From Plasmodium relictum (Eukaryota > Apicomplexa > Aconoidasida > Haemosporida > Plasmodiidae): a stretch of 20,695 bases of DNA. A program made the position numbers and the translations under genes. Below are positions 950-20,695 of the stretch, one piece after another; within the stretch, counting starts at the first letter, position 1; every line of letters begins with the position of its first letter. The stretch is taken from NCBI RefSeq assembly GCF_900005765.1, contig NW_021628371.1, positions 1 through 20,695 of the forward strand. The letters are read 5' to 3'. A model generated the notes under the pieces. That model saw only the letters and a list, made by a program, of their open reading frames with translations. It was not told where the DNA came from and made no database searches.

Positions 950-1552
950 TGATTTATTAATTACTTGCTTAATAGCTTTACTAGAGTATTAAACAATCAA
1001 ATTAATAAAGAGAATGTATAAATAAATATATGTTTTTATATATATATATTTGTTTTTATTATATATATAATGGTTTCTTATGATGTATCATATTTAATTT
1101 AATTTAAAGTTTATTGCACTTTTTAATAAGTATGTTAAACTGTTATAAAGGAATTTTTATTTACAATGAATAAGTATATTCTTTTATTTAAAGACACACA
1201 AAAATTATAACAAATAACAAAAATTAAGCTCTAATGCATTCAATGTTATTTCGAAATATACACATTTAATATAACATTAACATTATATTGTTTCATTTAT
1301 TAAGTTTTTCTTATTTAAGTTAATACTCTTTTTAATTTGAACAAACATCAACTGACAAAAAAAAAAAATAATTTTATTTTTTTTTTTTTTAATTACAAAG
1401 ACGTATATCCAATAAAATAAACAAACAAAAAAAAAATAACTTTATATATGTTTTTTTTTCTTTTAACTAGCGCCAGTGCATAGCTGACTTGTGCATACAT
1501 GACTGGTATACTAAATGTACTACAAAAGATTGATAACAACTTTTATTAACCA
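950..1552 (+). mobile_element. Family-A LTR (A2), full length
   Basis: It begins TGATTTATTAATTACTTGC and ends in TTTTATTAACCA, both diagnostic ends of the family. The 5' hairpin arms, poly-A/poly-T pairs, GCCAGTGCAT block and 3' terminal hairpin are all present over 603 bp. The 5-bp flanks are GGTAT on the left and CCTAT on the right, matching at only 3 of 5, so the target duplication is weak or mutated. It lies 9 bases after the end of A1 and directly abuts the next A body. Confidence 0.75.
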
Positions 1553-2570
1553 CCTATATAGCATTTAATTTGAATTAAGTAATTCTGTATTTCTTAAAAA
1601 ACATATTTTCTTTGACAAATATATATTTATTTACAAAGAATTAATATATTCTTTTAACTTAGAAACGAACACAAATAATTAAGCCACAACTAATAACAAA
1701 ATTAAATTATAAGTTATTTACTATTATTTCAAAATATACAAATTGAATACAACACAAACATTACACTTCTAATTCACTAAAAGAAAATAAAAAGTTTTCT
1801 TATCGTTACTTTTAATACATTAATTTTTATGCAAGTAAAAACAAATTCTTCATATATTGATTTATTAATTGGATATTCAAAGACTCGAATAAAAGTAATG
1901 AATATCCAAGTTAATAAAGAGCAAATTTTAGGACTACTTTATAATTTTATATTATAGATTTTATTTATAATACAAAATTAATTAAATTACTAAAATTTTT
2001 TTAAAATCTACAAAAGTTAAAAAAAATAAAAGCAATCCACTTGCTAATCTTTTCTCATTTAATTTCTCTCTTCTTTTTAAAATCTTTCTTTTTTTTCCAA
2101 AAAAAAGAATTTAAAAAAAATATAATTTTTTTTTATTTAAAAAAATAAAACATGCAAAAAAAAAATAAAAAAAATAAAAAAAAGACATAATATAACCGAG
2201 ATGTGTCTCAAAAAAAATATATATAATTAGACACACTAAATTAGTCAATATTCTAATAGCTTAATTTTTTAGCATGCAATACTTTCCTAAAGGAGACATA
2301 ATTATTTAAATTTTAAATATTTAAAATGCATATTAAGGGCAATGGATTTATTCATTGACCATATATCATTTAACAACCAACAAAAAAAAATTTTTTAAAT
2401 TTTTTTTTTAATAATCACAAAAATATATAAAGAATAAAATAAACAAACAAAAAAAAATAACTATGTATATTTTTTTTTTTTAACTAATGTCAGTGCACGG
2501 CTGACTTTTATTTTCCGGATTGGTAACCCATTTTATTTTACAAAAGGTTAATAACATTTTTTATTAACCA
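1553..2570 (+). mobile_element. Family-A LTR (A3), 5' truncated and split by a B insertion
   Basis: Positions 1553-1857 are A-type body (GCATTTAATTTGAATTAAG and onward), matching 18525-18830. The rest of the body resumes at 2367, after the nested B LTR, and continues through the poly-A/poly-T tracts and a GTCAGTGCACGGCTGAC block to a terminal hairpin and the ending ATTAACCA at 2570. The first roughly 100 bases of the LTR are missing, with A2 abutting the break. Removing the B insert restores the A order seen in uninterrupted copies, so A3 predates B1. Confidence 0.7.
1858..2361 (+). mobile_element. Family-B solo LTR (B1) nested in an A copy
   Basis: This 504-bp element starts TGATTTATTAATTGGATATTC and ends TTCATTGACCA. 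It is flanked by a perfect 5-bp direct repeat TATAT (1853-1857 and 2362-2366). TG...CA ends with a 5-bp duplication are the signature of an LTR inserted by a retroviral-type integrase. The 5' end forms a long hairpin: GGATATTCA pairs with TGAATATCC, extended by TTATTAA/TTAATAA. Family B also has a distinctive core, ATAACCGAGATGTGTCT, at 2191-2207. There is no internal domain, so it is a solo LTR. Two other copies lie at 7636-8172 and 10124-10662. Confidence 0.85.
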
Positions 2571-2925: not shown

Positions 2926-3929
2926 AGGTCAATAATAACTTTTATTAATCAATTATTAATATTTTAAAATATTTATAAACAAATTTAAAATAAACTTTAA
3001 TAATTATTTATCATTTCAGCTAGTAAATATATACACACATCTAAGTTAATATTATGCACCCGCTATATTTACTCGTCCCAAAAAATTTATTACTAAAAAA
3101 AAAATTTTTAATTATTTTTTTTTTTCTAGTGAATATAATAAAATAAAATGAGCCACAAGTACTAAAAACATGTAGAGAAATGTACATATGAAGGCATGCA
3201 AGTCAGTAGAAATATACAAGTACTTAATGTAATGTAAAAAAAAATATATATACATTTTTTTTTTCTAGTACACAAGTTATAATGCTATCTACCTGATTAA
3301 TAAAAAAAATTGTTATTAACTTTTTGTAAAATAAAACGAGATACTAGTCCAGAAAACATAAGTCATATATACATTGATGCTAGTTAAAAAAAAATATATA
3401 AAGTGATATTTTTTTTTTTTTGTGGATTGATATTTATTTGAATTAAAAAGGGAATTAATTTTTATTTACATAAAAACTTAATGAAAAAATATAATGTTTA
3501 TGTTTTATTTAATTTGTATATTTTGAAGTAACATTGAATAAATCAGAGTTTAATTTTTGTCATTTGTTATAAATTTTGTTTTTGTTTTTAATTAAAAAAA
3601 TATACTTATTTTTTGTAAATAAAAACACATTTATAAAAGTAAACATATATCTGTTGAACAATACAGAATTATTTAATTCAAATTAAATATTATATATTAT
3701 AAAATGCCTCTTATATATACAATAAAATAAGTATATATATATAAAAAAATACATATTTGGTTATACAATTCTCTTTATTAATTTGTTTGTTCAATACTCT
3801 AGCAAAGTCTTTGAGCAGGCACTAATAATTCACTACCTTACAAAATTTATGGGAACAAGATAAAATTTATTTATATAATATTCTTTATTAATATTATTGA
3901 AATTGATCAATAATATCATTCATTGATCA
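2926..3929 (-). mobile_element. Possible third LTR type (C), interrupted by A5
   Basis: Read on the minus strand, a TG start at 3929 (TGATCAATGAATGATATT) leads into a hairpin ATATTATTGA...TCAATAATAT and then ATTAATAAAGAAT. This is the same architecture as the 5' ends of A and B but a different sequence. The A5 solo LTR interrupts it at 3289-3837. A possible end is the terminal-type hairpin near 2926-2951, which would make C about 460 bp without A5, but its last bases are not a clean CA and no target duplication matches. The 5' end is fairly persuasive; the 3' end is a guess. Confidence 0.4.
3294..3832 (-). mobile_element. Family-A solo LTR (A5), minus strand, perfect TSD
   Basis: This is a 539-bp element on the minus strand. 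Its 5' end is at 3832 (TGAATTATTAGTGCC), with the family loop ACTTTGCTAGAGT and ATTAATAAAGAG. Its 3' end is at 3294 (TTTATTAATCA). It is flanked by an exact 5-bp direct repeat CTACC (3289-3293 and 3833-3837). The terminal hairpin AGTTAATAA...TTATTAATC, the GTTAAA block and the poly-A/poly-T pair are all visible in reverse complement. There is no internal coding region, so it is a solo LTR. Confidence 0.88.
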
Positions 3930-4263
3930 TTTATTTTGCTTTATAATCTCAATCTCTTTTAGTGTGTTTTCACCTGCATCATTTACATAATTATTCAAAT
4001 AATATATTTGAGCATTACTTTTTTCATAAATATCAAAATAGTCTTTAGGTTTTAATTCAGAAAATAACCATGGACTCTTCATAGTCCTATCAGTAACATG
4101 TATTAGATTCTTTAACTGAGCTTCATATATCTCTCTTGTTTTATTACTTAGTAATTTTATCTTAATAAAATTTGAATTTCTTTATCTCTATAATAAATAC
4201 AGATACTGCTTTTAGTCTTCCATTTTCAATTTTAGTTACTTTATATGTTATTTGATTTACTAA
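3927..4263 (-). pseudogene. Frameshifted coding remnant of unknown identity
   Basis: On the minus strand about 110 codons read through with only one frameshift, near 4163-4172. The base composition is noticeably richer in G and C than the neighbours. The upstream part includes TYKVTKIENGRLKAVSV; the downstream part includes KSPWLFSELKPKDYFDIYEK and DAGENTLKEIE, and ends in TGA at 3927-3929. I do not recognise the family. The TGA is also the first three bases of the LTR-like start of C on the same strand, which is where the 3' end of a retroelement pol would lie next to its 3' LTR. It could instead be a host-gene fragment. The upstream end runs into LTR A11. Confidence 0.55.
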
Positions 4264-4412
4264 TTATACATTCAATGACTTTGCTTGATTAATGGATAAT
4301 TAAATTAATAAAGAGCATATAGATAAATATTTACTAATTTTTATTAGGTTTTGTTACTTCTCTTACGTAGAATTTGAATTTAGAATTAATTTTAGAAATA
4401 ATTTTCAAAAAA
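4253..4412 (+). mobile_element. Family-A LTR 5' fragment (A11)
   Basis: It begins TGATTTACTAATTATAC, followed by AATGACTTTGC and AATTAATAAAGAGC, the family-A 5' hairpin region in degenerate form. The A body fades after about 160 bases, where another A 5' end begins. It overlaps the open end of the coding remnant on the other strand. It is old or truncated. Confidence 0.5.
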
Positions 4413-4991
4413 TAGTTCAGTAATTGTCCGTTCAATCGCTTTACTATAATATTGAACACACAAATTAATAAAAATATGTGTATATGATTATACAGATATT
4501 CTGTTTTTTACTAATTTTTTTTACTTTTAGAATAAATAAATTTATATGGTCAATATTTAATTTAACTAAGCATCTTTTTATTGTTTCAAAGATATTTATT
4601 TACTGTAACAAATGCACATTATATTCTTGTTAAAAATGCATATCCTCTTTTAAATTATGATTATGTAAAATAATTTAATTACAACAAATGTCAAATTTAA
4701 TTTAAAGTTATATAACTATTTTTAATGACATAGAAATTAAATGTATCAAAAAAAGATACTCTATTTATTTAAAATAAAATGTTTTAATAATGTTTTTATC
4801 TTTTATAAATTTAATTAAATCCCTTTTATAATAAGATTCTTAATCTTCATTCCGAGAAAAAAATATTTTAAAAAAATGATTATACATTTTTTTTTTTTTA
4901 AATAACATTATTACACGGATAATCCACATTCTCATGATTGGAAAAGTGAATTTTATTATTGCACAAAATTATTAATATCTTTTATTAACCA
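4413..4991 (+). mobile_element. Family-A LTR (A12), degenerate but full length
   Basis: The 5' end is diverged (AGTTCAGTAATTGTCCG, about 10 of 14 matches to the family start) but is followed by a recognisable loop and ATTAATAAA. The 3' end is clear: TATTAATATCTTTTATTAACCA at 4970-4991. At 579 bp its length is typical. The flanks AAAAA and AACAT match at only 3 of 5, in keeping with an old insertion. Confidence 0.55.
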
Positions 4992-6004
4992 AACATTTAT
5001 CCCCGATCCCTGAAACTTAAATTTTGAAAACTGAAATATTTTATTTATTTACTGTAAAAGTTAATAAATATAAATCCCACTTACAAATATTAAACTTTTT
5101 CTAAACAAAACAAAGGAGATATATGTAGTTCAATTAAACAAATTAATACTAATTAAAAATAAAAAAGGCCAAATCCAATATATTAATTAAAATATAAATG
5201 CTATTTTAATATTTACCGGATAAATAATGTTTCACTATACGATATTAGTAATAATAATACTAAAATAAATGAACAGATACAAAGAACTGATATCGTAAAA
5301 CAATCTAAAAAATATAAAATTAAGTAATACCATTATTTTTCCCTAAATGATGGAGCATAGCCAACAAATAGAATTATCAACTGACTTATATTAGGAAAGA
5401 AGAGAATGTATTTCATAGTTTAATTTTATATGTAATGTATTTATGCAAAATACTCATATTAATATGCTTACAATAAAATATGTACACTTCATTACATGCT
5501 TCATTATATAAAATAAAGAAAAAGTAATATTTCTTTTTATAAATATATATATATATATATATGTCAATGATATTACATTTTTTTTTGCTAATTGGTAGAA
5601 AAAAATAATTATTTTATTTTATATTTATTTTTATTCTTAAGATATTATGTTCGTGTGGTTATAAATTATTATTTCTGTTCTTTAGATATTGACTTAAATG
5701 ATTGGTAAATAACAAAATTAATATTGAGTAACAAGTAAATGAAAAGCTATATAAATATAGTAAAAAAATTTTAATTTTAAATAAAATTTTGTCTTTATTT
5801 TGCATAATTATTAAAGAATTAATTATTATTTAAAATAAATTTTATTTAATGAATTAAATATATACATATCTCTATATATAACATTCATTAATTTAACTAT
5901 TTAAAATGCTATGAAGACCTTTGATCAATCAATTAATAAGTCACACACACACACAAAAAAAAAAATTTATTTTAACAATACAAAATTTTATCAAAAAAAA
6001 TTAG
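4992..6004. other. AT-rich intergenic stretch, no gene seen
   Basis: No supported reading frame was found. It contains a (TA)n microsatellite at about 5541-5562 and a short (CA)n run at 5942-5956 followed by poly-A, just before LTR A4. The slightly more mixed sequence at 5340-5400 was read in all frames and is broken by stops. Confidence 0.5.
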
Positions 6005-6009
6005 AATTC

Positions 6010-6570
6010 CGATTTATTAACTGATCGTTTAATGACTTTGCTAGAGTATTAAACAAACAAATTAATAAAGAACATGTATAACTAAGTATACGTTTATATA
6101 TATATATCAGTTTATATATATAGTTTTTATGATGCATAATATTTGAGTTAAATTTTACTACATCTTTTAATAAACTTATTAATTTATTCAATGTTATTTC
6201 GAAATATACATCGATTATAACAAAAAAATTATAAGTTTTTATTTTTTATTTTTATAAGTTAAAAATATATCTTTATTTCTTAAAAACTTCCCCACACAAA
6301 AAAAAAAATAATTTAAAATTTTTTTTTTTAAAATATGTCAAAAAAAAATAAACAAAAAAAAAAAATATATATATATTTTTTTATTTTTTTTATTTTTATT
6401 AGTGTCAGTACACATTAGTTTGTACATACACATATAATAAACTAACTTAGTGTACTACAAAAATTATAATATCTTTTGTTAATTAGTCAGTGCATGGGTA
6501 ATTTGTATATGCACATATAGTAACCTAGCGTATTGTACTGAAAAAGGTTAATAATAGCTTTTATTAACAA
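6010..6570 (+). mobile_element. Family-A solo LTR (A4), perfect TSD
   Basis: This 561-bp element is flanked by an exact 5-bp direct repeat AATTC (6005-6009 and 6571-6575). Its ends are CGATTTATTAAC and TTATTAACAA, each one change from the family consensus TG and CA. The 5' hairpin, loop ACTTTGCTAGAGT and poly-A/poly-T pairs are intact. The 3' module (GTCAGT... block plus terminal hairpin) occurs twice in tandem, at about 6399-6480 and 6484-6570, which is peculiar to this copy. A 66-codon frame on the opposite strand is only the reverse reading of the LTR. Confidence 0.88.
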
Positions 6571-7635: not shown

Positions 7636-8172
7636 TAATTTATTAGTTGGTTATTCAACGACTTTAATAAAAACAATGAATATCCAAGTTAATAAAGGGG
7701 AAATTTTAGGACTCCTTTATAATTTTGTATTAAAGCTTCTATATAATGCAAAATTAATTAAATCGCCTTTAAAAACTAAAATCTATAATAAGTTAAAAAT
7801 TTAATTGACACAATCCACTTGCCATCCTTTTTTCATTTATTCTTTTCACATGAAAAATTCTCCCCAAAAAAAAGTTAAAAAAATATGCAAAAAAAAACAT
7901 AAAAATAAATACACAAAAAAAAAATAGACATTAATATAATTATAACCGAGATGTGTCTAAAAAAAAATCTTTTATTAGACACACTAAGTTGGTCTCAGTG
8001 CTAATGCTTTAGCTTTTACATACAATGAACTCCTAGATAAGACAAAATAAAATTTTTTCATATTAATTGGTTGGTGTTATTCAATTAATCATTCACATGT
8101 ATAAATAAGTTTTGTTAAGGAAAAACTTAAAACTGCATATTAATTAAGATAAATGAATTTATTCATTGATCG
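7636..8172 (+). mobile_element. Family-B LTR (B2), older copy
   Basis: It starts TAATTTATTAGTTGGTTATTC and ends TTCATTGATCG, with both terminal dinucleotides one step from TG and CA. The hairpin arms (GGTTATTCA with TGAATATCC) and the core ATAACCGAGATGTGTCT at 7942-7958 are retained. The core is followed by a stem TGTGTCTAA...TTAGACACA. The flanks ATATC and ATAGT share three bases, so any target duplication has decayed. At 537 bp it matches the length of B3. Confidence 0.75.
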
Positions 8173-9524
8173 ATAGTACATCAAACAATAAAACTAATAA
8201 ATAAAATGTAAAATAGCATCAATTAATTTTATTTATTCTATAATAACTTATAGATAATATAAAAAATCGTTATCTATGTATACCTTATAATATGAAATAA
8301 AGGAATTATTTCATTTAAAATTTATAATCCTCTAATTGAAGATATTTCAAATAAATATTTTATATTTTTCAATAAATTATTAAATATTAAAAAGTAGTTC
8401 TATAGTTTAATAAAAATTCTCAATTATTTTATTAAAATTGTTTCATATAAAAAAAAAATATTCTTAAAACTTTCTCATATTTATATATATATATATTAAA
8501 AGGATATTTTGTTCTCCAAAAAAGAAAAGTATTGTTAAAAAAAAATAATAATTCTTTTTTATTAATGTACATATTTCCAGTAATCTCATTTTCTTAAATA
8601 CTTTTTGTACATAACTAAAATATTACCCTTATTACATTTCATCGTAGTGAGTAATTAAAATAGCTACTGAACGAATTCTTGTTTTACATCCTATTATTAT
8701 TTAAAAAAAAGTAATATAACAAATAACATCTCAATTGTAGCTCATTAAACGATTCATGAAATGTTAATATATATTAAGTGGATAATCCTATTTAGTATAT
8801 TAATTCAAAATTTTTTAATATAATAAACTTTAAATAAATAAAACTGAAAATTTGTTCAAATATTTTAAAATTATATTCTTAACTAATATGTAAGCAAATA
8901 TTCAATTATCAAATAATTCTATGATTTTCCCTTTGTTAATAAAAATATTTTTAGCCCTTTATATAATGATAGTTAGCTGTTCATACGGAAAATGGAAAGT
9001 TATCAATAGTTAGTTTTAATAAAAAAAAAGATGACAATTTTTTTTTCCTGTGTGTTATTGTTCTTATAAAATCTATTTTTATTCATTTATAAATAAAAAA
9101 GTTTATTTTTTTTTGTATGCTTAAATATAAGGAATAATTTTCAACAAAAATGTTTTTGTAAAATTTTTGTTCATAAATAGAACTAATCTTTAAACAATAA
9201 AAAAATTAAATATGAAATTAAAAAGGAAAAAAAAATATTTTTTTTTTTATTGATATTTAATTTTTACTTATTCTTATTTTTTTAAACACTATTAATAACT
9301 ATAACTTAAATTTATTTGCTTGTTTTAATTAATTATTTAGATACCCAATAATTTTAATGAAGATTTAAATTTACAATAAAAATAAAGATATATTTTTATT
9401 TAAGTAAATAAGTGAATCTCAAATAATAATTGCCAAATTATATAAATTCTACGTATAAAATTTACATACGAGTATCATAAATATATTTTTACAATGAATA
9501 AAATCAGTAGAAGCATCTATAGAT
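8173..9524. other. Long AT-rich stretch, no gene seen
   Basis: I saw no coding signal, RNA gene or clear repeat. Poly-A and poly-T runs and an (AT)n tract near 8482-8496 are the only structure. The minus-strand LTR fragment ending at 9588 may extend into the right part, but its body is too diverged to follow. Confidence 0.45.
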
Positions 9525-9588
9525 ACTCTTTGTTAATTTGTCTGTTCAATAGTATAGCAAATCCATTAAACAGACAACCAATGAATCA
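9525..9588 (-). mobile_element. Family-A LTR 5'-end fragment (A13), minus strand
   Basis: On the minus strand it starts TGATTCATTGGTTGTCTG at 9588. It has the loop GATTTGCTATACT and ends ATTAACAAAGAG. The hairpin arms TTGTCTGTT and AACAGACAA pair perfectly over 9 bases, although they differ from other copies. The remaining LTR body downstream is not recognisable. Confidence 0.6.
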
Positions 9589-9649
9589 ATGAAACAAATA
9601 ATTTTTTTCATTCTTTTTTTTTGAGTAAACTTTTCATAAAGAATCAGGC

Positions 9650-9699
9650 AATATGTTTAATACTCTAGCAAAGTCATTAAATAGACAATTAATAAATCA
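9650..9699 (-). mobile_element. Family-A LTR 5'-end fragment (A14), minus strand
   Basis: On the minus strand TGATTTATTAATTGTC at 9699 is followed by AATGACTTTGCTAGAGTATT and then breaks off at about 9650. Only the first 50 bases of the LTR remain. It lies 60 bases from A13 in the same orientation. Confidence 0.6.
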
Positions 9700-9762
9700 A
9701 TTTGATAATCCAATTGGGTTCTTTTTATATCATTTTATATATAACTTGCATTTGCCAACAAA

Positions 9763-9830
9763 TGATTTATTAATTGACAGTTTGAATATTTTTGCAATAT
9801 TTTAAATAGTCAAAGTAATAAGGAGAATAT
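9763..9830 (+). mobile_element. Diverged LTR 5' end (A15)
   Basis: TGATTTATTAATTGACAG leads into an imperfect hairpin closed by GTCAAAGTAATAAGGAG. This is the same architecture as families A and B but a diverged loop. The body beyond about 9830 cannot be followed confidently; it may continue to the B3 insertion point at 10119. Confidence 0.45.
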
Positions 9831-10123
9831 AGAGAAATCTCTACTAATTTTACGTATAATAAAATAACATAATATAGATAATTATATAATCTTTATATAA
9901 CTATTTATATAACATAAAATAAATTTATTTTATATATTATTTAATCTCGTTTTCAAAATTGTTTACTACAGTTTATTTTTACTTACGTATTAGTTTGAAT
10001 CATTGATTTTTTTTTAAAAGTCTTTATTTTTTATTATTTATCTTTAAAGTAAACTTAAATAAATCACATGACAAAATTAAAAATTAAAAAAATTAATGAT
10101 AAATAGAATATTTTATAGACCAC

Positions 10124-10662
10124 TGGTCAATGAATAAATTCATTGCCCTTAATTAATGTACAGTTTGAAATTAGTCTTAATAAAATTTATATATATATGT
10201 TCGTAGTTAATTTTGTAGTACTAGGCAATTATTTATAACCTAAATAATTATTTCTTTATCTAGGAGTACATTACATGTAATAAGTTAAGTTACTAGAACC
10301 ATGACCAACTTAGTGTGTTTCATTACTATTTTTTTTACATGTCTCGGTTATGATTATATTATATCTTCTTTTTTTTATTTTTTTTATTTAAAAATTTTTT
10401 TAAAAAAAAAATTATTATTTTTTTTTTTTTAGAATGAATTTTTTATGGAGAAAGATTGTAAAATAAAAGGATAGCAAGTGGATTACTTTTATTTTATTTA
10501 ACTTTTATAGACTTTTATTTTCTTAAAGTGATTGTATTAGTTTTGTATTATAAAAATAGAATCTATAATACAAAATTATAAAGGAGTCCTAAAACTTTCT
10601 CTTTATTAACTTGGATATTCATTACTTTCATCCAAGTCTTTGAATATCCAATTAATAAATCA
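10124..10662 (-). mobile_element. Family-B solo LTR (B3), minus strand, perfect TSD
   Basis: This is a 539-bp element on the minus strand. It starts at 10662 (TGATTTATTAATTGGATATTC) and ends at 10124 (GGGCAATGAATTTATTCATTGACCA-type end). An exact 5-bp direct repeat ACCAC lies on both sides (10119-10123 and 10663-10667). The 5' hairpin GGATATTCA/TGAATATCC, the core ATAACCGAGACATGT (10337-10351) and a poly-A/poly-T pair are present. The 3' end contains an 18-nt near-palindrome (10128-10145). There is no internal coding region. Confidence 0.9.
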
Positions 10663-10760: not shown

Positions 10761-11352
10761 TGATTTATTAATTGGATGTTCAATGACTTTTCTAGAGTAT
10801 TAAACAAACAAATTAGTAAAGCGTACGTACAATTAAATATACTGATTTTCGTATTACATATAGAAACACTTATATATAGCATTTAATATGATAAAGTAAT
10901 TCTGTATTGTTTAACAGGAATGTTTTTACTTTTACAAATGTATTATTATTTACAAAGAATAAGTATGTTCTTTTAATTAAAATGCACACACAAAATTAAG
11001 TTATAAAAAATAAAAAAAATTAAACTTTAAGTTACTCAGTACTATTTCAAAGTAAACAAATCGAGTACTATATAAACATTACACATTTCATACAGTCATT
11101 TTTATATTTTAAGTAAAATATAAATTCTCTTTTCCCTTTTTTTTTTACAATAAAATAAAAAAATTAAAATATTTTTTTTAATTACAAAAATAAGAACAAT
11201 AAAACAAACATAAAAAAAAAATATAGCTATATATATATGTATAATATATTTATATTTTTTTAACTAGCATCATTGTATGGATGATTTATATTTTCCTAAA
11301 TAGTAAGCTAACTTTATATACTATAAAAATTAATAATATCTTTTATTAATCA
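10761..11352 (+). mobile_element. Family-A LTR (A6)
   Basis: The 5' end is TGATTTATTAATTGGATG, with loop ACTTTTCTAGAGT and the 3' arm ATTAGTAAAG. The 3' end is the terminal hairpin AATTAATAATATCTTTTATTAATCA at 11328-11352. It is 592 bp long. The flanks GCATC and GTATT differ at two positions, both C to T, consistent with a decayed duplication. It is the closest mobile element to the 3' end of the gene, about 260 bases from the stop codon. Confidence 0.78.
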
Positions 11353-11609: not shown

Positions 11610-14600
11610 TTATTCTGTTTCATTTTTAGTAAAATCTGTCAACCTTTGGTTAATATGAAATAATGCGAGTAAAATACATTGCATATTATCTATATTTTCT
11701 TTAGTGTTATCTTCATTTATCTTATTATATATCATAAAATAAGGACGTTCCAGAATTGACTTAATTTTCATTATTTTCTTGTAAAGTTTTTTTGATATAT
11801 TAGTTTTTATATAACTTTTTAAAGTACTAAATAAATATAAATTTATTATTTTTAACTTAATTTTTTCCAATTTAGATTTTTCAGCTTCTATAATGGAAAG
11901 TAAATGCAATTGATGTTTTTTTGTTAAAATTTCTTTTGTTTCATGTGAAATATTTTTCTTTTTACTATTTTCATTTATAAATATTAATAACTTGCGTATT
12001 TTATTAATAATGTTTACTTGTTTTATTATAAACGCTTCTCCAAGTAACTCCATAAGGATTTCATTAGCATAAGATAAATGTCTTACTTTCTTTGTATCAT
12101 TTATGAAATCATTAAAATTTTTTCCTTTCTTATTTTCTTCATTCAAATTTAAATTAAAAACTTTACAGGCTTCTTCATGGTACTCTAAAATACATTTTTC
12201 TTCCTCTAATAAAAGCTCCTGAATCATTTTCATGGAACTTATATAATTATTTTTACTTAATAAATTATCTAATTCTTTCCTATTTTTTGCGTTTTCTTTA
12301 TTAAAAAAATAAAAAATACTATTTATTATTATGTTGTAGTCTTCATATGATAAATTCAGCTTATCAAAAATATTTTGAAGTTTAATAAAACGCTCTTGAA
12401 CACTTTTAGCTTTTCTTATACTATAAGGTTGTATAAAATGCTGAGTTGTAATTTTATAAGTACATTCTCTTAATAGAAATCCATTTTTTAATGATTCTTC
12501 CACACAACCTATATATTTATCCATGGATTCTAATAAATCAAATAAACGTTTAAAATTTGCACATGATTGAATAAATCGAGGTTGAAATAACTTATTATGC
12601 ATGAAATTGTCCATAATTGTTGATTTTACATCATCTATTTGCTTCATAAATTCAAGTTCAGGTATTAATTCTCTAAAAAATTCAAATAACTCCCTCATTC
12701 TTTGAAATATTTCTTCTTTTTTATTAAATTTATAATTTACACTATGTTTAAATGATAAAATATAATTATAACTTTCTTCTGATTTAGTGTCTCTTATATT
12801 TCGATCATAGTATTCTTTAATTTTTGTAAAATCATATGGATTAATTTTTAGTAGTTCTTCATTTATAAGAGCTTTTAATGAAAAAACGTTTATGTTCAAT
12901 TTTTTTTCCAAATTAGAATACTTATTTACTATTTCATTTCTTAAAGAGTCTTTTATTTTTTCTAAATTTGGAATTGTATTATTTGATAAATAATAAATTT
13001 CTCTTTCGAAAAAAGTTGAAAGAGAATAAACCAGGTTTTCAATATCCCTATTAGGACTATCTTTTCCTCTGGAAGAAACATGAAGATAATTGGAATTACT
13101 ATTATCATCTGAATCATAACTTTTATGGCATTTTGTATTCACTAGATATCTTATGCATGACTGTGCATTACCATCGTTAACACCCATACTATAAATAAAA
13201 ATAAAATAACAATATTATATATATATATATAATATTTAAGATAAAAAATCTTTTATATTAGATGCTTAAAAAATATATACCCTCTAGCAGATAAATCAAT
13301 AAAACAATTTTGAATGTAATGTAATATTTTTTTATGAATTTCATTAATTTCTTCCTCATTGCTTTCATTTTCTAGGATTTTATTTGATTTTCGTTTATAT
13401 TTTTTTATTAAGCGTGAATTTTCTTTACTATTTTTTATAGATGCAGTAGGTCTAGAAAAAAAACATACATACATATATGCATGCATCCGTGTAGAGAAAA
13501 CTTAATTAAAACAAGAAATTTTATATGTTAAAATATTTAAAAAAGAATATACTGATTTTTAGAGGAACCAGGAAGAGCATTTTCTAGTCCAACACATTTT
13601 TCATTTTCTATGTCCATTAAATTCACTGATCTAGAAGATTCTTCCATCATATAAGTTGTTAAATTTTGTCTAAAAGCAAGGAACATCATATATACAAATA
13701 TATTATTTATTTAAAACAAAATACTATATGCATAAAAATAGTCAATATAATATGTACTGTTCTGTAGAAAGTTCATCATTAATCATTTGTGATTCAACTG
13801 ATTCTTCATTTGCATTTTCTGTGGGTATTAAATTGTTAGCAGTGAAGAGTATATTTTCATAATTAATAGTTGAATATTGACTAAAAAAAAAAGAATTACA
13901 TATTTATAAAATATATTAAATAAAAATAAAATGATTTCCATGCATAGATATATTAATATACTCTCCTAGGAGTAGCTCAAGTAATCCCCCTTTCCTATAA
14001 TTAGGAGTAACTGGTTCATAATTGAAAATATATTGTAGATTATGTGAATTTTCATGCTCTTTATTTTTTGTATCTATTGAACTTATGTTAGAATGCTCTG
14101 TTTCAGTAATAATACTTGAATAGTTTCTAAAAATAAAGCAAATTACATATACATAAAACCTTTAGTTTAAACAAAAAATTTATTAATAGAAAATATCTTA
14201 AAACTATATACGGTTCACAAAAAAAATCAATTGGTTCTATTGTTAAAATTGGTAATTCATTCTGTACTCCATCTGAACTATTTTCTAAACAATGTGATTT
14301 ACTTTTCTCTAAGTATGTTGTGCCATCTAAACTTTCCATGTTATGAAGCTCTTTTTTTTTATGAGTAGTTGAATGTTGTCTAAAATAAACAAAAAAAAAA
14401 AAATACATATAATCATAAAATATTGAATTAATATAAAATATGATTTATGTGAAAAAATTCCTAAAAGAATATACTGCTCCATGGAGAAATCAATAGATAT
14501 ATTTGGTATATCAGGAATTTCATCTTGTTCGATATCTTTTGTATAAATTAAATTTCTTATACTATGAGATTTGTCTCTTATATAATTATTTGAATAAATT

Positions 14601-14788
14601 CTATGAATAAAAAATTTATATATATATGTAATATTTAATTAAAATAAATGTCTTTTCAAATGAAAATATCAAAGAATTATGTACTCTTCTGAGGATAGAT
14701 CTAGGTTCTCATGCTGTTCTTGTGAGATACAAATATTAATTAATATAGCATATTGCAAGGAATAAAAAAAAAATTTGATATGCAACAT
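11610..14788 (-). CDS. Eight-exon secreted protein of unknown function, 850 residues
   Basis: Minus-strand exons are 14788-14685, 14600-14475, 14379-14212, 14126-13962, 13880-13758, 13669-13553, 13451-13281 and 13188-11610. The introns are 81-101 bp, all begin GT and end AG, and all are in phase 2, so the exons join in one frame to TAA at 11610-11612. The start ATG (14786-14788) follows an A-rich stretch and gives MLHIKFFFYSLQYAILINIC, a classic signal peptide, with likely cleavage before QEQHENLD. Exons 2-7 are 39-57-residue acidic, Ser/Asn-rich cassettes, several opening with [QNI]-[YH]-S-[TSN]. Exon 8 (residues 326-850) is long, charged and predicted helical, with no Trp and no transmembrane segment. 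There is no canonical PEXEL near the N-terminus, so it is secreted, but export is unproven. The setting suggests a subtelomeric multigene family; the avian fam-f family is one candidate to test. I cannot assign a function. Confidence 0.85.
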
Positions 14789-16437
14789 TTTTTTATATTT
14801 GCAATGTTTATTTTTTACTAAATTTATAAAAAAAAAGGAGAAAAAGAAAATATGTTATTCATATATTAAAATTATATTCTATTTGTAATATATGTTAAGT
14901 TTTATTTTTACTAAATAATAACATATACTTTTATATTTTATGCTTCTATAATGAAAAAAATATTAGCACAGTATATTTCATATGTTAAATTATTAAAATT
15001 ATATAAAAGATTAAATTTTTATTCAGAAAATATCAAAATATTTTGATTTTATGCTAAAAATTATAAATAAATATTTTTAATAAATTAAATTTAAGTTATA
15101 TAATTATTTTTTCCTATTAAATAGTCTGATTTTCATAATTAAAAACATGATTAAAAATTTGAATAAAAATAAATTGTATATTTTTACTCATTAATACATT
15201 TATGATTATGTGAGAACTTATAAGTTTAATAAATCGTATAGATAGAACAAAAAAATCTATTTAAATAATATTTAAAATTATTTTTTGCTTTTTTCTTATT
15301 TTACTATGTAAAAACCTATATACCAAGTAAAATATAATTTTTTTTTTTTCATAGTTACCAATATAATGTTAAATTATTAATATTTTTCAGAAGATATGCT
15401 AACATATTAATACTAATTTTAATGTTTTCTATGTTACCAAAATTATAAATTTTATTTTATCAAAATAAAAAGAAAAAGAAAAATGACTAAATTAGTGCAA
15501 CTTTTTAAATAAATTTATACAAATAATTTAAATTGTTTTTATTGCAATAATATAATTTTAAAATGATTAAATTATTTTTATTCAAAAAATGCATGTAATA
15601 ATGATTTTTTATAATGCAATGAAGTTTAAAATATATGGCATTTATAAGTCAAAAATATGCAAATAACATAAATTAATAGATAAATATGATTATTTGAAAA
15701 TAAATAAGTTATTTATTAAAAATATTATTTAACTCGACTCTTAATGACTTTGATATGTTACAGAAAAAACTAAAGAGCTTACGGATAAATTTCTATTAAT
15801 TTTAATTATTCTAAAAATATATTTATTCTACAAGTAAACTTTATATATATAGTTTATATTACTTAGCATTTACTATTTTCGAGCATTTATATTAATAAAA
15901 ATTTATCTTCGTTCTTATTAAAAATTTAAATACCAGTTAAAACTACTTATTATGCGTAAAATAACTTTTTAAATAAAATAAACGACGTATATTAGAGTTA
16001 CTCATATTTTTTTTTAAAATACATAAAGATTAAATATTTATAAAAATAAAAGTATTCTTGTTTTTCTTTTAAATTTCTAATTTAATTTTTCATGATTTTA
16101 AAAATTAATATGATTAATAAAATTTAATTGCCTAAAAAAAAATTTTTTTTAGTGTACATATTAAAGTATGTAATGTACTGTAAGAATTTTAATGTACATT
16201 TTTTCCTTAAATAATTTACATATATAATTAATCTTTCACGTATACTACATTTCTTTTTAGTAAAAATATAGCTAATAAATTATATTGCTTATTGACAGAA
16301 CGGAGAAGAATATTTTGTACATATTGCAATTAATAATTACTCTTGTGTTATATTTAATAATGTAAAAAAGAAATTTCCTTATACAAATATTGTTAATTTT
16401 ATCGTTTAAAATACTTTTAAAGGGTTCAAAAAACTAA
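14789..16437. other. Long AT-rich region upstream of the gene
   Basis: This should hold the promoter and 5' untranslated region of the minus-strand gene. The first 80 bases upstream of the ATG are A- and T-tract rich, as usual for Plasmodium promoters, with no specific site recognisable. No reading frame, LTR end or RNA gene was seen in the rest. It is the longest part of the window free of recognisable LTR ends. Confidence 0.5.
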
Positions 16438-18389: not shown

Positions 18390-18991
18390 TGTTTTGTCAA
18401 TTGCCTATCCAATGGCTTTTCTGGAGTATTAAACATATTAATAAAGAGCATGCATAACTAAATATACTTATTTTTAGTGTATATACTTATTCTTAAAATA
18501 TGTATACAGAAATATTTATCATATATAACATTTAATTTAAATTAAGCAATTATGCATTGCTTAAGAGACGTATATTAACTTTGAAAATTTTATACTTTAC
18601 AAAGAGTCAGTATATTCTTTTAATTTAGAAACGTTTAAAAATAATTAAGTTATAACAAATAACAAAATTAAATTTTAATTTATTCACTGTTATTTCAACA
18701 TATATAATTTGAAGATAACATAAATATTATACTTATTTATTAAAAGAAATAAAAATTTTCCTTATAATTACTTTTCATACATTAATTTTTTTATATTTCA
18801 ATTAAACATTAGTTCTCTCTTCAATTAAAAAGTAAACGCAAAAAAAAAATTATTAAATCTTTTTTTTTTTTAATAATTATAAAGATGTATAAAGAATAAA
18901 ATAAACAAAAAAAATATAGCTATAATATTTTTTTTAACCAGTGTCTGTATTTGGCTGACTTGTATTTTCCTAACTAGTAAGCTAACTTTAG
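18390..18991 (+). mobile_element. Family-A LTR (A7), 3' end lost
   Basis: The 5' end TGTTTTGTCAATTGCC is a diverged form of the family start. It is followed by loop GGCTTTTCTGGAGT, ATTAATAAAGAGC, the A body, a poly-A/poly-T pair and GTCTGTATTTGGCTGAC. Sequence matching LTR A6 stops at about 18991, before the terminal hairpin, and a minus-strand A copy begins a few bases later. Confidence 0.65.
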
Positions 18992-19006: not shown

Positions 19007-19511
19007 TAGCTAATAAAAGTATGTATATTAACTTTTTGTATATAATAACTAGCTAAAATAACAACGAAGAAATTTAGCCTCGCACACAATGTTATCAATG
19101 CCAATCATGCGTTTTTAGCTAAATAAAAAAAAAAAAAATTCTTTAATTAGTTTTTTTTTTAACATTTTGGTTTCGTAAAGAAAGATATTATTTTTAATTT
19201 TTTTTTAACTCATTTTTTTGGGGAAAAAAATGAAGATATTTAAGAATATATAAACTTGTAAAAGACATAATCTTTAATCAAAGATATTATGTATGCATGT
19301 TTATATAAGATGTTTATTATAAGTTAATTATATGTTATTTATTGAATACTTATAAGTTATTAAATAATTAAACACTTTATCATTTTTAAGCAATTTCACT
19401 AAAAAGGAAAAGCATAAACTAATAAAAATATTAAACAATATAAAAATGCCCTTTATTACATTGCCCATTCAATACCTTAGCAAAATCATTAAGTGGGCAA
19501 TTAGTAAATAA
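19007..19511 (-). mobile_element. Family-A LTR (A8), minus strand
   Basis: On the minus strand it starts at about 19511 (TTATTTACTAATTGCCCAC). The hairpin arms TTGCCCA and TGGGCAA pair perfectly, and ATAAAGGGC follows. It ends at about 19007 with the terminal hairpin AGTTAATATACATACTTTTATTAGC. Both terminal dinucleotides are mutated. The flanks are ATACT on the left and AGTAT on the right, which are not direct repeats. It separates truncated copies A7 and A9. Confidence 0.6.
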
Positions 19512-20241: not shown

Positions 20242-20695
20242 TGATTTATTAATTGCCCGTTTAATGACTTTGCTAGAGTATTAAACAAACAAATTAATAA
20301 AGAGCATGTATAACTAAGTATACGTTTATATATATATATTAGTTTTTATTATATATATATATACAGTTTTCTTATGATGCATAATATTTAATTGAAATTA
20401 AATTTTACTGCATCTTTTAATAAACCTATTAACAGTTATAAATGAGTTTTTATTTACAAAGAATTAATATCTTCTTTTAATTAAAAACATACAAATAATT
20501 TATAACAATTTATTAAGTCAAAATTTTATGATATTCAATGTTATTTCAAAAATATACATTGAATAATACATAAATATTTCTCTTATCTCTTAAGTTTTAA
20601 TAAGTTAACATTTCTTTCTTTTAATTTTTATTTACACTAAAAATTAAAACATAACATAACATAACATAACATTCATTCTTTTAATTTTTATTTAC
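20242..20695 (+). mobile_element. Family-A LTR (A10), runs off the window
   Basis: It has a perfect family start TGATTTATTAATTGCCCG, the hairpin with GTTTAAT/ATTAAAC arms around loop GACTTTGCTAGAGT, and a body nearly identical to 303-705. Its left flank is GTATG. The last 20 bases repeat positions 20616-20635 at a 60-bp period, through a CATAACATAAC run, so the sequence stops just inside a second copy of that unit. This may be a tandem repeat or an assembly end effect. Confidence 0.8.

Follow-up and report, generated by a model that had tools for sequence, protein, structure and literature searches.

A U5-end hairpin beside the tRNA primer-binding site of Ty3/Gypsy LTR elements in Plasmodium relictum, a probable relative in kind of the retroviral U5-IR stem-loop

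The U5-IR arrangement of retroviruses is said, going by the title, to be the subject of a 1997 report by Miller and others, and Tf1 of Schizosaccharomyces pombe, a Ty3/Gypsy relative, reportedly depends on a structure resembling the U5-IR stem-loop of retroviruses, again going by a title, that of Lin and Levin in 1998. In retroviruses, U5 and the terminal repeat of the LTR form a stem beside the primer-binding site, or PBS (PMC3601003, in extract), Tf1 is self-primed (PMC4600332, in extract), and in HIV-2 a long hairpin precedes the PBS, with an A-rich loop that contacts the anticodon of the primer and with further contacts between U5 and the tRNA (PMC3185550, in extract). The annealed length in retroviruses is 18 nt, with a stop at m1A58, and over-extension sequences are known in lentiviruses and spumaviruses (PMC13191261, in extract). 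Extracts of two papers describe Ty3/Gypsy LTR elements in P. relictum and P. gallinaceum, mostly as subtelomeric fragments (PMC5880244, PMC9141347), and in the first the order in these species is protease-RT-RNase H-integrase and the PBS of P. gallinaceum is complementary to tRNA-Ser(GCT). The main text of PMC5880244, as extracted, has 0 occurrences of “hairpin” and 0 of “solo,” and neither a tRNA-His primer nor an over-long PBS was found there; “hairpin” is likewise absent from the main text of PMC9141347 as extracted, and no Plasmodium report was among the matches listed for the U5-IR literature.

Here we describe a hairpin at the U5 end of such elements in P. relictum. The window, that is, the whole stretch of DNA analyzed, is an entire contig (C24) of 20,695 bases, and the genome searched comprises 22,602,028 bases in 514 contigs. 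A profile built by sequence alone from 147 short LTR ends gave 428 nhmmer matches in all sequence except two loci (L001 and L039) that repeat the window; removal of 43 overlapping matches left 385, from which came 320 full-length distinct copies and an alignment of 292 distinct sequences over 69 columns. All aligned copies come from one genome, the window's own, and 14 rows are labeled as belonging to the window, one of which (15722-15783) keeps just 6 of 19 pairs. The window copies are as follows, with strands in coding sense and z-scores against shuffled sequence.

950 to 1018, minus strand: U5-end hairpin, A type; 18/19 pairs, z -3.3
1858 to 1926, minus strand: U5-end hairpin, B type; z -7.1
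1858 to 2361, minus strand: solo B-type LTR with the preceding hairpin at its U5 end; TG...CA ends on the plus strand
3765 to 3832, plus strand: U5-end hairpin, A type; 15/19 pairs, z -3.1
4253 to 4321, minus strand: U5-end copy with a weak fold; 16/19 pairs in register, z -1.0
4413 to 4481, minus strand: U5-end hairpin, C type; 17/19 pairs, z -1.8
5875 to 5943, plus strand: weak candidate copy; 14/19 pairs
6010 to 6078, minus strand: U5-end hairpin, A type; 18/19 pairs, z -4.6
7637 to 7705, minus strand: U5-end hairpin, B type; 17/19 pairs, z -3.8
9520 to 9588, plus strand: U5-end hairpin with stem TTGTCTGTT/AACAGACAA; 16/19 pairs, z -1.9; sense -9.4 versus antisense -17.5 kcal/mol
9763 to 9831, minus strand: U5-end hairpin of a diverged family; 14/19 pairs, z -4.7
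10593 to 10661, plus strand: U5-end hairpin, B type; 19/19 pairs, z -7.5 (10600-10662)
10761 to 10829, minus strand: U5-end hairpin, A type; 16/19 pairs, z -2.2
18392 to 18454, minus strand: U5-end copy that has lost 6 nt; 13/19 pairs, z -0.5
19443 to 19511, plus strand: U5-end hairpin with stem TTGCCCA/TGGGCAA; 17/19 pairs, z -2.9
20242 to 20310, minus strand: U5-end hairpin, A type; z -5.7

The inverted repeats with family-specific stems that the earlier note had reported are thus present, at 9520-9588, 9763-9831 and 10593-10661 and at others across the window. That every LTR carries the hairpin was too general a statement: 10 of the 16 window hairpins have z <= -2, whereas values between -0.3 and -1.0 belong to the note's “C” hairpin and to the copies near 4254, 18391 and 9651; z is -1.8 at 4429 and -1.9 at 9526. 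This “C” hairpin (3890-3914, within 3880-3930), ATATTATTGA/TCAATAATAT, forms an inverted repeat of its own next to the motif TTTATTAAT; it has z -0.5, is absent from the 14 window rows, and showed no homology in the profile search.

The window holds other features of these repeats. TATAT flanks the solo LTR at 1858-2361 on both sides, which is weak evidence of a target duplication because the sequence is AT-rich. Short palindromes lie at U3 ends, for example at 2341-2361 (B) and 916-942 (A), and they differ between the two types. The contig opens with a near-perfect 90-nt palindrome (1-90) in which A-type LTR sequence flanks a run of TA, either a fold-back insertion or an assembly effect. Genome searches with DNA queries scored 40 of 213-1731 candidates each, which makes every copy number a minimum. 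The opening 257 nt of the A-type LTR end at 20242-20500 recur at 99-100% identity in at least 40 places including itself (40 of 1731 candidates scored), often near contig ends, and this end is either young or homogenized against other copies. Between LTR fragments, a minus-strand series of ORFs split by short AT-rich gaps (about 11610-14854, the longest of 534 aa) looks like a multi-exon gene.

Which end of the LTR carries the hairpin depends on the coding sense. Genome-wide there are 45 matches to the integrase core family rve, of which 25 exceed the cut-off; the loci of 30 were extracted. In 15 of the 30 (9 A-type and 6 B-type, at 84 bits or more) an LTR in the same sense starts 993-1079 nt past the start of rve, that is, the integrase core lies upstream of a 3′ LTR as in Ty3/Gypsy elements; over the same interval the other 15 have three weak sense matches (48-53 bits), four weak antisense matches (48-61 bits) and eight times none. 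Further LTR copies sit in these loci in both senses, as expected for nested insertions. Ten U5 ends continue with AT and a tRNA complement (up to 5 mismatches in 18 nt), six with that of tRNA-Ser and four with that of tRNA-His, which places a tRNA primer-binding site (tRNA-Ser(GCT), tRNA-His(GTG)) after the 5′ LTR. Together, integrase position and primer sites put the hairpin at the 3′ (U5) end of the LTR, just before the PBS, and make the coding sense the reverse complement of the strand used before, on which the end with TTATTAATT had been misread as 5′ and the hairpin assigned to the 5′ end. The 3′ arm of the hairpin is the terminal inverted repeat of the LTR and ends 3 nt short of the LTR end, leaving 5 nt (3 nt of LTR plus AT) between its foot and the PBS; on the coding strand the structure therefore lies in U5, directly 5′ of the PBS (10 U5 ends; 15/30 loci). 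A purine-rich run, for example GTGGTGGAG, precedes several 3′ LTRs (L013, L017, L029, L032, L037). A reading of these repeats as DNA transposons was rejected on integrase position, PBS and purine-rich run.

This arrangement resembles the U5-IR of Rous sarcoma virus, an avian retrovirus, in that U5 and the terminal inverted repeat form a stem directly 5′ of the PBS; the primer tRNAs differ, the Plasmodium sequence is very AT-rich, and a U5-tRNA contact or a function would be a prediction for the Plasmodium hairpin. Tf1 shares a U5-IR-like RNA structure, claimed in the title of Lin and Levin to be needed for reverse transcription, although Tf1 is self-primed and the elements here carry tRNA primer sites. 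In view of that claim, known from the title alone, the statement that such a structure is no standard part of Ty3/Gypsy LTRs was too strong. As in HIV-2, the hairpin stands upstream of the PBS and its loop could meet the anticodon, since UAGCA is complementary to UGCUA of tRNA-Ser; unlike in HIV-2, where contacts are described, the match is one of complementarity, the G and C of the loop stand in some of the most variable columns (35 and 51 changes), and loops of the B type lack the match. With the P. gallinaceum and P. relictum elements as described in the extract of PMC5880244 the elements here share the subtelomeric LTR fragments and, for P. gallinaceum, the tRNA-Ser(GCT) PBS.

In the consensus fold, columns 10-17 pair with 59-66 in an 8-bp outer helix, column 18 is a bulge, and columns 19-31 face 46-58. 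This homologous fold, of outer helix, 1-nt bulge, inner helix and loop, recurs across families whose stem sequences differ, and the claim that stems vary yet stay paired holds between families. Copies keep a mean of 17.0 of 19 pairs, with 15 or more in 263 of 292 and 10 or fewer in 3. In each of four window LTRs cut into tiles (200 shuffles), the terminal 62 nt are the strongest-folded tile (z -3.8, -6.0, -2.2, -4.9); the other tiles range from -1.9 to +1.7, save -2.8, -4.0, -2.6 and, in a tile overlapping the hairpin, -5.9. Sixty random copies have a mean z of -4.3 sense and -2.8 antisense. The mean number of Fitch changes per column is 8.4 in columns 10-17 and 11.8 in columns 59-66, as against 30.9 in the flank (columns 1-9). 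Equal conservation of the terminal arm and of a 5′ outer arm some 50 nt inside the LTR points to pairing, and to more than an integrase site. The conserved A-type loop is also borne out, as UAGCA in coding sense, by 119 of 217 non-B copies (2 of 75 B copies). The A-type stem needs a correction: the block between outer and inner stem (GCCC versus AAAC) is unpaired on the strand of the earlier note and pairs as G.U on the coding strand.

The two strands are distinguished by their wobble pairs. G.U cells outnumber A.C cells by 470 to 88 over the nine inner pairs, against 64 and 74 over the ten outer pairs; as A.C cells are G.U on the opposite strand, the inner excess favors a coding-strand RNA, and the changes in outer pairs look like decay in dead copies. 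Minimum free energies over the 292 copies average -11.3 sense and -10.4 antisense, with sense lower in 180 of 292, kinship being ignored. RNAalifold gave -12.58 sense and -2.38 antisense for a set of 18 copies, which was picked by sense pairing after that pairing had been seen and is thus biased toward sense. Antisense folds better in 7 of 16 window copies, most so at 9520-9588. On balance, action as coding-strand RNA is favored.

Does the stem covary beyond phylogenetic expectation? Several pairs change type: 28-49 is UA in 132, CG in 108, UG in 18 and CA in 18 copies, 25-52 is GC in 117 and AU in 82, and 22-55 and 23-54 carry several pair types. In 74 copies picked by hand from the alignment, as was the set of 18, and judged without a tree, 87.9% of cells pair as against 28-51% in slid versions, and 83 cells are changed on both sides, against 36.0±8.9 when shuffled and 16-32 when slid. 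The nine pairs with a double change were matched by 113 of 500 shuffles and by every slid version, and the count of pair types was reached by 71 of 500. With a tree, no column pair reached E<0.05 in an APC-corrected G-test; the best helix pair was 28-49 (E 2.2; pair p 0.0025, the lowest value that 400 simulations allow), and columns outside the helix scored equally high where they follow the division into A and B types. Inner-helix changes coincide on one branch 34 times, against 23.7±4.6 in 60 simulations, at least one of which exceeded 34 (maximum 38); slid versions gave 13-26, against nulls of their own of 13.3-20.0. Reconstructed double changes kept pairing 8.7 times (slid 0-3.6) and broke it 11.5 times (slid 1-5.8). 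A test of internal against terminal branches gave p 0.034 sense and 0.75 antisense for the inner helix, and the slid -1 control was similar. The outer helix, which has no visible covariation, also reached z 1.6-2.0 under a cell-count tree null, which shows that null to be biased, and just the raw G.U and A.C counts are used here. RNAalifold predicted no pairs on the 74 copies; on the 18 well-kept copies it found the hairpin unaided, with 18 pairs, 5 of them with double changes. The families thus have different stems that pair, and the excess over phylogeny within this genome is modest. The proposed covariation is clear without a tree (83 versus 36.0±8.9) and falls short of E<0.05 at every pair with one. 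Strong folding, outer arms equally conserved at a distance of about 50 nt, and stems that differ between families and still pair support the proposed selection for structure; tree-aware covariation is modest.

Could the palindrome matter as DNA instead, as the LTR end recognized by integrase or as a fold of the single-stranded cDNA end? The U5 terminus is itself the 3′ arm, U3 ends fold as well (A-type TGGTTAATAA...TTATTAACC, B-type ...CAATG...CATTG; to about -10 kcal/mol, sense and antisense much alike), and the seven window hairpins that fold better antisense point the same way. We nevertheless consider such a role, the integrase version of which the earlier note also raised, unlikely, given that an outer arm some 50 nt inside the LTR equals the terminal arm in conservation, that wobble pairs of the inner stem are G.U on one strand (470 versus 88), for which a DNA structure has no need, and that within a family the palindrome at U3 does not share its sequence with the one at U5. 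Alternatively, the hairpin may have no function of its own: fold-back templated repair or copying would keep the arms of a quasi-palindrome similar, and dead copies would inherit it. The modest tree-aware covariation would fit this, as would pair-breaking double changes as common as pair-keeping ones; templated repair, however, would restore Watson-Crick pairs, yet the A type keeps up to three adjacent U.G pairs (columns 22-24, in 98, 129 and 88 copies), and the outer arms are conserved rather than changing together, which leaves this explanation doubtful in our judgment.

Two further possibilities concern polyadenylation. The poly(A) hairpin of HIV-1 hides its signal, and in like manner the stem might mask the AAUAAA that lies, in coding sense, within its 3′ arm (UUAAUAAAUCA) and thereby spare the 5′ leader from cleavage and polyadenylation. 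AATAAA does sit in the conserved 3′ arm, but chance alone makes it frequent at the AT content of this genome, pairing with UUUAUUA accounts for its conservation, and we hold masking to be improbable. The earlier note's proposal that the hairpin stands at the 3′ end of the RNA, ahead of AATAAAG, is scarcely credible: AATAAAG does come after the hairpin on the strand then used, which integrase position and tRNA primer sites identify as antisense. This poly(A) hairpin reading was dropped, as on the coding strand the hairpin does not lie just upstream of that signal.

The primer sites differ by element type. ARAGORN finds genes for both primers, tRNA-His(GTG), used by B-type elements, in L238, and tRNA-Ser(GCT), used by A-type elements, in L240. 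The sites are these:

L241 (C29), A type: complement of tRNA-Ser(GCT) over 59/59 nt, to linear nt 27, an end that assumes a gene of 82 nt plus CCA (ARAGORN gives 84 nt)
L048, A type: 49/57 identical columns, reaching 53-54 tRNA nt, where the locus ends
L064, A type: 45/57 identical columns, reaching 53-54 tRNA nt
L025, A type: 42/56 identical columns, reaching 53-54 tRNA nt
L097: weaker tRNA-Ser match, 22/31
L069: weaker tRNA-Ser match, 17/21
L042, L067, L239 and L035, B type: tRNA-His(GTG) over 28-29 nt, 26-27 of 29-30 columns

The sites of L048, L064 and L025 have extra A's at the T loop in common, and L242 (C109) is also among the loci with a primer site far beyond 18 nt. Such over-long sites suggest that copying ran beyond position 58 and brought tRNA sequence into the element; a limited search of literature extracts found no precedent for a primer site of 59 nt. 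More tentatively, the A-type hairpin may belong to an unusual initiation complex, in which a PBS of up to 59 nt would cover tRNA-Ser(GCU) from its CCA end across the T, variable and anticodon arms as far as a G (linear nt 26), where it stops. Plus-strand synthesis would run past position 58 and stop at nt 26, perhaps because G26 is modified, so that the element would take up and pass on the 3′ part of the tRNA, and the UAGCA loop could hold the anticodon region before annealing is complete. Pairing between this loop and the anticodon was considered, and column conservation gives it no support (35 changes at the loop G, 51 at the C).

What, then, does the hairpin do? From its position, its primers and its fold we infer that it is, with fair probability, a U5-IR-type stem-loop that Ty3/Gypsy elements of avian malaria parasites carry in the 5′ leader of their genomic RNA; its presence in that leader follows from the U5 position if transcription starts upstream. 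The retroviral U5-IR, the structure named in the Tf1 title and the HIV-2 hairpin are the reason for assigning it to the initiation complex. From the 3′ end of the tRNA, reverse transcriptase would meet the stem after about 5 nt, and by keeping U5 in one conformation next to the duplex of tRNA and template the stem may make initiation efficient and ordered. The outer arm would later be the U5 DNA end processed by integrase, which may add to the conservation of that arm.

If this reading of the hairpin as a U5-IR-type stem-loop is right, it would extend initiation structures of that type to apicomplexan Ty3/Gypsy elements. These LTRs should be annotated on the strand opposite to that of the earlier note, and the distance that reverse transcriptase read into the tRNA may be preserved in the over-long primer sites derived from it. 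A single genome here offers both primer types and hundreds of natural variants, which makes these elements a test bed for joint change in stem, loop and primer.
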